From an uncultured Roseovarius sp. (GTDB taxonomy: Bacteria > Pseudomonadota > Alphaproteobacteria > Rhodobacterales > Rhodobacteraceae), in assembly GCA_947503145.1 (NCBI GenBank), contig CANNCP010000001.1, forward strand, positions 248,001 to 312,000: 64,000 nucleotides of DNA, read 5' to 3'. The position numbers were made by a program, and so were the translations under genes. The first letter of the stretch is position 1. Each line of letters begins with the position of its first letter. The notes beneath the pieces were generated by a model, which was given only the letters and a program-made list of their open reading frames with translations, searched no databases and was not told where the DNA came from. Shown here one piece after another: positions 26,056-31,057 of this stretch.

Positions 26056-26481
26056 TCACTCCTCGCCCGGGGTCACACTCCCGCGGAGCGACTTCACCTC
26101 GCCACGCACCTTCTTGGCCTTCAGCCGTCGCTTCTTGGACCCCAGCGTGGGCCGTGTCGCAATCCGCCGCTTTGGCGCCTCCAACGCGCGAGTGATCAGC
26201 TCTGCCAGCCGCTCGCGCGCGATGTCGCGGTTGCGCGCCTGATGGCGGGTCTCGTCGCACTGGATGATCAGCGCGCCCTCCTTGGTCCAGCGCCGACCGG
26301 CCAGCCGTTTCAGCCGTCGTTTCACCGGGTCTGGCAGGTTGGGCGAGCGTTCGGCCTCGAACCGCAGCTCGACGGCGCTGGCAACCTTGTTCACGTTCTG
26401 CCCGCCCGGCCCACTGGCGCGCACAAATTGTTCGGTCAGTTCCCAGTCCTCGATTGTAATACGGTCATTTATCTTCAACAT
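26056..26481 (-). CDS. arfB: Peptidyl-tRNA hydrolase ArfB (ribosome rescue)
   Basis: A 141-residue protein of the ArfB/YaeJ family that frees ribosomes stalled on mRNA without a stop codon. The catalytic GGQ is in VRASGPGGQNVNKV near residue 26. The C-terminus is a long basic tail (RPTLGSKKRRLKAKKVRGEV) that would enter the empty mRNA channel. An intrinsic terminator ends only about 25 bp before the ATG, and a mini-ORF with an extreme SD precedes that, so expression may depend on readthrough (see finding). Confidence 0.93.
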   Translation of the reverse strand: MLKINDRITIEDWELTEQFVRASGPGGQNVNKVASAVELRFEAERSPNLPDPVKRRLKRLAGRRWTKEGALIIQCDETRHQARNRDIARERLAELITRALEAPKRRIATRPTLGSKKRRLKAKKVRGEVKSLRGSVTPGEE

Positions 26482-26504
26482 GATTTCAACTTAATGGGTT
26501 TTGG

Positions 26505-26541
26505 CCAAATCAAAAGGGCCGCCCCATATGGGAACGGCCCT
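26505..26541 (-). terminator. Intrinsic terminator between leader RNA and arfB
   Basis: On the minus strand, 7-bp arms AGGGCCG and CGGCCCT (positions 26541-26535 and 26521-26515) enclose a second palindrome, CCCATATGGG, and are followed by TTTTGATTT. It ends about 25 bp upstream of the arfB start, so transcripts from the region 26700-26610 should mostly stop here. Confidence 0.75.
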
Positions 26542-26610
26542 CTAGAAGTTTACGGAGGTGGGCCGGTTAGGCGCACCAATTCTGGTCAGTCGTCTCGCCC
26601 AGGGGCTGCC

Positions 26611-26667
26611 CTAGACGCGTGCCTCCAGAACTGTTCCGACACCTCGCTCCAATACCTCTATGGACAC
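26611..26667 (-). CDS. Mini-ORF (18 codons) with 16S-complementary SD
   Basis: On the minus strand, GTG at 26667 opens an 18-residue peptide, MSIEVLERGVGTVLEARV, ended by TAG. Just upstream, at 26683-26669, GAAAGGAGGTGGTCC can pair along its whole length with the 16S rRNA 3' tail (one G-U). I do not recognise the peptide. It may be a leader peptide for arfB control or part of a small RNA. The strong SD makes translation likely; protein function is unproven. Confidence 0.45.
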   Translation of the reverse strand: MSIEVLERGVGTVLEARV

Positions 26668-26736
26668 TGGACCACCTCCTTTCGTTTGTTAAACCTGAGG
26701 CAAGCCTGCCATAGATTTCACATTTGTCAAAACATT

Positions 26737-27363
26737 TTAGCGCACATCCTGCGTGAACCGCGCCACGATGAGGCGAAACGGCACCAGCGCCAGCAGCGCC
26801 ACGCCCAGCTTTACCGCCCAATCGGCCACCGCCAGTGTCACCCAAAGCGGTGCCTCAGGCCCTGTCATAAGAAACGGCGAAGCCTCCCACGCCCAGCTTA
26901 TCGCCGCATCCGCCCGGTCACCGAAAATGCGGAACGACGCCGAAAAGGCGATGGAAAAGAACAGGATCGTGTCCACGGTCGAGCCGATCAGCGTCGAGGC
27001 CAGCGGCGCGCGCCACCACACCCCGCCGCGCAGCCGGTCGAACACCGCCACGTCCAGCAACTGCGCCACCAAAAAGGCCGTCGCAGATCCTACCGCGACC
27101 CGCAGCGCCACCGCAGGCCCGTATTCCAGCATGATCTGCGAACCGATCAGGCTACACGCGATCCCAACAAGAAAGCCCGCGAAAACCACCCGCCGCGCTG
27201 CCGCCGCGCCATAGATGCGATTCATCACGTCCGTCACCAGAAAGGCCAGCGGATAGGTGAACGCGCCCCAGGTCAGCAACCCGTCCAACACCAGAAACTG
27301 CACAAGGATGTTAGAGGCCACCACGATGGCAGCCATGGCAAGAATGCCAGTCAGATGTCGCAT
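26737..27363 (-). CDS. Queuosine precursor transporter (VUT/YhhQ family)
   Basis: A 208-residue membrane protein with about six spans, matching the vitamin uptake-like YhhQ family that imports 7-cyano-7-deazaguanine or related precursors for tRNA queuosine. Visible family blocks are TYPLAFLVTDVMNRIYG near residues 36-52 and GSTVDTILFFSIAF. I prefer the ATG at 27363; the frame could open at a GTG at 27381. No preQ1 riboswitch was recognised upstream. Confidence 0.87.
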   Translation of the reverse strand: MRHLTGILAMAAIVVASNILVQFLVLDGLLTWGAFTYPLAFLVTDVMNRIYGAAAARRVVFAGFLVGIACSLIGSQIMLEYGPAVALRVAVGSATAFLVAQLLDVAVFDRLRGGVWWRAPLASTLIGSTVDTILFFSIAFSASFRIFGDRADAAISWAWEASPFLMTGPEAPLWVTLAVADWAVKLGVALLALVPFRLIVARFTQDVR

Positions 27364-27477
27364 GAGCTTTTCCGTTTTCACAAGGTTGCGGAGACTTGGC
27401 CCCCGGACGCCGGGGACGAATACAGTTTATTCCCTGCCACCGGCACCGTCAACACACCCCAAGAACGCACGCCCCCG

Positions 27478-30804: not shown

Positions 30805-30944
30805 TATAATGCAGCACTTTATTAATACGCTATGCGTATATTTCTGCTGTATCCCGTTATCGGGCTTGAAGACCCAGAGCACTGGGCAGGCCGCCCAACG
30901 AACGATGACAGCTTTAGGGCAGTCTAGATTGTGTCAAGCGTCCC

Positions 30945-30969
30945 AAAACCCCGCCTCGCGCGGGGTTTT
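30945..30969 (+). terminator. Bidirectional hairpin terminator between yggT and recQ
   Basis: Perfect 10-bp arms AAAACCCCGC and GCGGGGTTTT with a 5-nt loop. The A-run and T-run on either side let it act in both directions. It lies 140 bp after yggT and about 90 bp before recQ. Further upstream, ATACGC-TAT-GCGTAT (30825-30839) is an operator-like dyad. Confidence 0.7.
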
Positions 30970-31057
30970 GCGTTTCTGATACTAGACCCTTGTTCACCGA
31001 ATCGTAGTGTGAAAAGCTGACGCTCAGAGCAGTTGAAAAAATCTTACAGGATCAGCA

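Follow-up and report, generated by a model that had tools for sequence, protein, structure and literature searches.

An 18-codon small gene with an extended Shine-Dalgarno sequence, likely rreR, and a predicted 3' lock next to arfB in an uncultured Roseovarius

The minus strand of the window (the whole stretch of 64,000 nucleotides from an uncultured Roseovarius sp. analyzed here) carries a real and conserved small gene in the space between a queuosine precursor transporter gene and arfB. We read it, with a probability of about 0.6, as a stand-alone gene of 18 codons, very likely rreR, that has a 17-base Shine-Dalgarno sequence (SD) complementary to 16S rRNA, its own predicted promoter and terminator and a start that is likely locked by the 3' end of the same RNA, and as a relative of the CC2171 RNA (Table 1). 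The gene itself appears to have been published already, as rreR, so that an earlier proposal about arfB, made from the letters of the window alone (the sequence-only reading), is not carried forward as a new system; its statement that no system of this form had been described probably does not hold, as rreR appears to be the same gene. The part worth testing is the 3' lock.

Two kinds of small mRNA with an extended SD, rreR and rreB, have reportedly been described. The former is said to belong to the Rhodobacter/Roseobacter lineage and to code for 18 amino acids, its SD being complementary to 16S rRNA over 16 nt or more. Going by this description, the small gene of the window is very likely rreR: the complementarity extends over 17 nt with one G-U pair (using the tail of genome L142), an 18-codon open reading frame (ORF) lies directly behind it, and the element recurs across the window's family (175 of 198 genomes). 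The latter, rreB, reportedly starts with GTG behind an SD of 17 nt, and its RNA is said to bind the 30S subunit (co-sedimentation), to be weakly translated and to become more stable when the start codon is removed. The arfB/transporter neighborhood, the pre-terminator lock and the link to CC2171 come from the present analysis and may or may not be contained in Hahn et al. (2017, RNA Biol 14:1353-1363), a paper in the reference list of PMC7298713.

Table 1. Features of the small-gene locus and its neighbors, in window coordinates.
Feature	Positions	Strand	Basis or remark
-35-like element TTGACA, predicted own promoter of the RNA	26725..26730	-	Located by position; conserved columns
Extended SD	26667..26683	-	17 nt against the 16S rRNA tail, one G-U; takes in the first base of the start codon
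18-codon GTG ORF with TAG stop, MSIEVLERGVGTVLEARV, likely rreR	26611..26667	-	18 codons in 83/91 family loci
Predicted start-codon hairpin, UCCAGU with AUUGGA	26648..26671	-	Each of six pairs kept in 76-82 of 82 rows, mostly invariant
In-frame element GAGGUGUCGG, codons 8-11	26636..26645	-	Could pair with CCGGCCCACCUC and would then compete with the SD
Pre-terminator element CCGGCCCACCUCC	26554..26566	-	Inner CCACCUCC (26561-26554) complementary to GGAGGUGG of the SD
Predicted intrinsic terminator, hairpin and T-run	26512..26542	-	Sequence and fold
arfB, downstream neighbor, not counted in the element	26056..26481	-	NF006718, 186.1 bits vs cut-off of 100
Queuosine precursor transporter gene, upstream neighbor	26737..27381	-	TIGR00697, 97.2 bits vs cut-off of 50.95

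The 16S-complementary segment, first put at 15 nt with one G-U pair, is real and actually covers 17 nt (GAAAGGAGGTGGTCCAG, 26683-26667). The 16S 3' end was not found in the window's own assembly, and the tail (...GGCTGGATCACCTCCTTTCT) was taken from L142, a genome of the same genus, and applied to all copies. Measured against it, with G-U allowed, the longest complement is 16 to 18 nt in 83 of 88 family copies and 11 to 12 nt in the other five, compared with 3 to 8 nt before all 68 arfB starts. The predicted duplex between SD and 16S tail reaches -32 kcal/mol, and the pairing in cis described below has a median of -16 kcal/mol in the family and -20 kcal/mol in the window. Within the 3.55-Mb genome, AAAGGAGGTGRTC occurs once, at the present locus. 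A chance origin is ruled out by this single occurrence, by the comparison of the fold with shuffles and by the family-wide recurrence. Five family copies (L079, L087, L098, L113 and L119) have GGAGGTGC, in which the 16S complementarity is broken at one position, and in three of these five the pre-terminator element has the matching G.

A covariance model that we made from 32 training copies over 107 positions found the element in the 175 of 198 family genomes mentioned above, a count that includes the 32 copies, which match by construction. There was a single match per genome except in G185, the sole family genome with two matches to this rreR model. The Rfam model of CC2171 (RF01867), at E values up to 0.001, matched 160 of the 198 family genomes, none over the cut-off. 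In a set of 289 genomes from the class it matched 61, nine of them over the cut-off. The exact extended SD followed by RTG was present in 48 of the 289 class genomes (48 sites in all), and an exact-pattern scan of named genomes gave at least 119 stretches. The genomes behind the 80 matches listed either carry names from Rhodobacteraceae/Paracoccaceae genera (Ruegeria, Roseobacter, Paracoccus and Cereibacter johrii among them) or are MAGs of unclassified proteobacteria.

The comparisons that follow use 139 loci (L001 to L139), of which 91 belong to the window's family and 48 lie outside it. The strict SD pattern is present in 132 of them; of the other seven, six have a variant SD with a frame and one (L139) has no such SD with a frame. 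Only strict-pattern loci entered the pN/pS, promoter-column, SD-helix-length, consensus-fold and 3'-pairing-probability analyses, and five of the variant-SD loci (without L131) were included in those of the anti-SD site, swapped and shuffled elements, 16S complement, duplex energy and opening cost. Two loci without arfB or transporter (L062 and L105) were added on the basis of their peptide to the consensus fold, 3'-pairing probability, anti-SD site, swap/shuffle, 16S-complement, energy and opening-cost analyses. Three family members (L004, L073 and L111) were placed among the 28 remaining loci in the swap/shuffle and opening-cost tests, from which the four loci with no recognized terminator (L033, L058, L061 and L077) were excluded, and L115 was excluded from the 82-row consensus fold. 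The 81-locus set behind the promoter columns and SD-helix length had been selected by presence of arfB or the transporter and is superseded by counts on 91. The 21 loci called MSHC-type were grouped by eye.

The 18-codon ORF proposed in the sequence-only reading (26667-26611) is confirmed, with a GTG start and a TAG stop. Conservation in relatives of the SD/anti-SD pair and of the 18-codon frame was the test which that reading had set for itself, and both turned out to be conserved. Starts are GTG in 87 and ATG in 4 of the 91 family loci, and over 137 loci GTG in 104, ATG in 31 and TTG in 2, the script having demanded one of these three codons behind the SD and made no demand for a stop codon. 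Over the 91 family loci, codon 19 is TGA in 38, TAG in 34, TAA in 11 and something else in 8; TGG never appears there, while A and G otherwise mix freely at the last two positions. The conservation of start and stop codons argues that the frame is translated. Peptide conservation in the family centers on LE(R/K)GVGT and is weak between lineages, which suggests that having a ribosome on the RNA is no less important than the peptide. For 77 frames, picked by length and motif, pN/pS over the whole ORF was 0.83 in frame, no better than in the other two frames (0.77 and 0.77), and over codons 2 to 12 it was 0.64 in frame against 1.01 and 0.95. Since the coding trend is confined to codons 2 to 12, constraint on the RNA explains much of the conservation. 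Beside the lock, UCGG (codons 10-11) could pair with CCG(G/A), each of the four pairs being kept in 78 of 82 rows. Judging from these alignments, start, stop and length look selected, while RNA structure may account for much of the conservation in between. A conserved function of the peptide is partly supported at most, with a coding signal in codons 2 to 12 only.

The weak peptide conservation between lineages, together with the near-invariant complementarity to the full 16S tail and the strength of the predicted duplex, would also fit an RNA that serves as a decoy, holding or buffering free 30S subunits through the 17-nt contact, with a short ORF that merely frees the ribosomes. However, 83 of the 91 family loci preserve a length of 18 codons followed by a stop as codon 19, and buffering would need a very high abundance of one small RNA, so we consider this role quite improbable.

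The RNA is predicted to have its own ends. In 55 of 88 family copies the SD is preceded at 48 to 53 nt by TTGAC, which a control stretch shows in 2 of 88; in the other groups this element is rarer (4 of 21 and 6 of 28). A script detected a terminator (hairpin and T-run) in 133 of 137 loci. The one described before arfB is present at 26542-26512; it ends 30 bp from the arfB ATG (26481), or 33 nt counted from the start of the T-run, where about 25 bp had been claimed.

These signals bear on what the sequence-only reading had proposed, the control of arfB by the mini-ORF. Put as an alternative, the RNA would be a cis attenuator, in which the availability or stalling of ribosomes on the mini-ORF sets read-through into arfB. 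The assignment of arfB itself stands (Table 1), and the gene is found in 73 of the 91 family loci, on the same strand as the RNA in all 68 where the strand was checked. The gap from terminator to arfB is at most 40 nt in 26 of 66 loci, which leaves scant space for a separate arfB promoter. The association is nevertheless not constant: arfB is absent within 486 to 1,682 nt downstream in 18 of the 91 family loci and from the flanking DNA examined in all 48 loci outside the family, the gap ranges from 16 to 567 nt, and the RNA has a -35-like element and a terminator of its own. RNAalifold returned no conserved antiterminator for 82 rows, in a fold that missed the terminator as well. We therefore regard attenuation of arfB as unlikely. 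The RNA is probably a separate gene adjoining arfB and not an arfB switch, and arfB would at most receive read-through, which is possible because it is co-directional and lies within 40 nt in the 26 loci. In these loci and in the window (26481-26515), arfB is left with scarcely any space for a promoter and leader of its own. The transporter gene accompanies the RNA in 80 of the 91 family loci and in none of the 48 others within the flanking DNA examined, and five family loci have neither gene. Beyond the family, the neighbors, taken as the longest nearby ORFs and compared by eye, appear unrelated to each other. None of four phrases on arfB regulation occurs in the available part of the review PMC8012679. 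The trpL attenuator leader of Sinorhizobium resembles the locus in having a short ORF within a small RNA that precedes a gene; peTrpL, however, is leaderless and tied to trpE (according to the available part of PMC10117765), while the window has an extended SD and arfB does not lie beside the RNA outside the family.

The candidate lock of the small gene consists of the SD and the pre-terminator element. The anti-SD noticed in the sequence-only reading, CCACCTCC at 26561-26554, is present and complementary to the SD. In 79 of 88 family loci, GGAGGTG makes all seven pairs at its best site within the 60 nt that precede the terminator; the element is CACCTCC in 33, CATCTCC in 19 and CGCCTCC in 16 of the 88, with rarer forms in the rest. 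Position 8 of the SD is C in five loci, and the opposite base is G in three of these, vs three of the 82 other loci. In the 87 loci with at least six pairs, the base opposite position 8 is C in 23 of 23 loci that have G there, and a pairing T in 4 of the 59 that have A. The SD is fixed by its pairing with 16S rRNA and cannot covary freely, so that the loci behind the covariation are few and may be related.

Folding points in the same direction in most copies. The 196-nt RNA of the window has a predicted fold 3.5 standard deviations below that of dinucleotide shuffles, and its minimum-energy structure pairs the SD with CCACCUCC. The mean probability of pairing between the SD and the 3' part exceeds 0.5 in 75 of 83 loci. 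For the window's copy with slightly different ends it is 0.07, and the fold of this copy, ambiguous in the model, is best called bistable. The SD pairing is missing from the RNAalifold consensus of 82 family rows. The predicted cost of opening the SD in the family is 6.3 kcal/mol at full length, 1.3 kcal/mol without the 3' part and 4.1 kcal/mol with the element shuffled, the full-length value being above the shuffled one in 69 of 86 loci (p = 9e-10, p values here ignoring the relatedness of loci); in the window's copy it is 6.7 vs 2.8 kcal/mol without the 3' part. Pairing of the start region with the element in the family is 0.27 for the true element, 0.21 for shuffled and 0.11 for swapped ones. 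The length of the SD helix (8.06 vs 7.40 nt in shuffles for 81 family loci, 8.24 vs 7.51 nt for 51 others) is weak as a bulk statistic, and for this reason positional and element-shuffle tests were used. As far as alignment and predicted folds go, the family has preserved a pairing between the SD and the pre-terminator CACCUCC.

A conserved CACCUCC core, in the forms counted above, could also belong to a trans-acting RNA, whose CCACCUCC, set free and exposed once a ribosome occupies the RNA's own SD, would serve as the seed of anti-SD pairing with other mRNAs. Small RNAs with a CCUCC motif exist in alphaproteobacteria, and the 3' half of the element gives a weak match to suhB/mmgR (17 bits, E value of 0.45). 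This match is below the cut-off of 41 bits and was taken as chance, most variants of the element are tolerated by the cis partner through G-U pairs, and in the MSHC-type loci another pairing replaces the role of the element. Action in trans thus seems to us a poor candidate, with little probability. Weak matches to the RsmY family elsewhere in the window (30875-30971, both strands) were likewise below the gathering score and are probably chance.

With a lock in cis, the SD would be open during transcription and could capture a 30S subunit across the whole 16S tail. Once transcribed, the pre-terminator CACCUCC would compete for the SD, and an RNA without a bound ribosome would close. With a predicted SD:16S duplex of -32 kcal/mol against a cis pairing of -16 (family median) or -20 kcal/mol (window), such a mechanism is consistent with the reported behavior of rreB. 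The predicted lock, different in form between two lineages but directed at the same region, would offer a mechanism for poor translation despite an extreme SD.

The likeness to CC2171, a Caulobacter RNA, extends over the full length of the model. Positions 26691-26516 of the window align to RF01867 from 1 to 159 (48.7 bits, E value of 6.1e-08), with the same start, CAACAA-n-GAAAGGAGGUGAUCCAGUGUC, and the same position of the terminator; the genome has no other match at E values up to 1. Because the score is below the curated gathering cut-off of 75, we call the window's element a relative of CC2171 and not a member. Rfam gives the type of the family as sRNA, yet the nine loci above the cut-off (L031 to L039) have the same extended SD and a frame of 22 to 26 codons. 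They differ in that their predicted long-range pairing is to codons 3 to 5 and not to the SD. The rreB and rreR genes and the CC2171 RNA family could be joined.

Among the 21 MSHC-type loci, most have GACAAUG as the element, which could pair with codons 3 to 5 (16 to 18 of 21 rows for each pair), with isolated compensatory changes. Opening the region from the start codon to codon 5 has a predicted cost of 7.5 against 4.9 with the element shuffled (higher in 15 of 19 loci), while the SD is cheaper to open with the element than with it shuffled (3.3 vs 5.2). Swapped elements pair about as well as true ones (p = 0.16, ignoring the relatedness of loci). In the remaining 28 loci the lock is weak: true elements pair no differently from shuffled ones (p = 0.63) and swapped ones pair better than true ones (p = 0.011), both ignoring relatedness, and opening from the start codon to codon 5 costs 6.4 vs 5.9 (p = 0.03, with the same limit).

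It is conceivable, and we put it forward tentatively as something that may well not hold, that the alphaproteobacterial RNAs with an extended SD form a single family across the class, made up of small mRNAs that time themselves. In all of them the 3' end would lock the RNA's own translation start, at the SD for the window's family and at the start codon and codons 3 to 5 for the CC2171 and MSHC lineages, which would restrict translation to RNA that is nascent or held by a 30S subunit. If so, such RNAs would read out free 30S subunits, and the "sRNA" CC2171 of Rfam would count among the translated members. A 25-amino-acid MSHC peptide has no family in NCBIfam. Two related loci outside the window's family, L129 and L130, have a TTG start behind the extended SD and frames of 30 codons.
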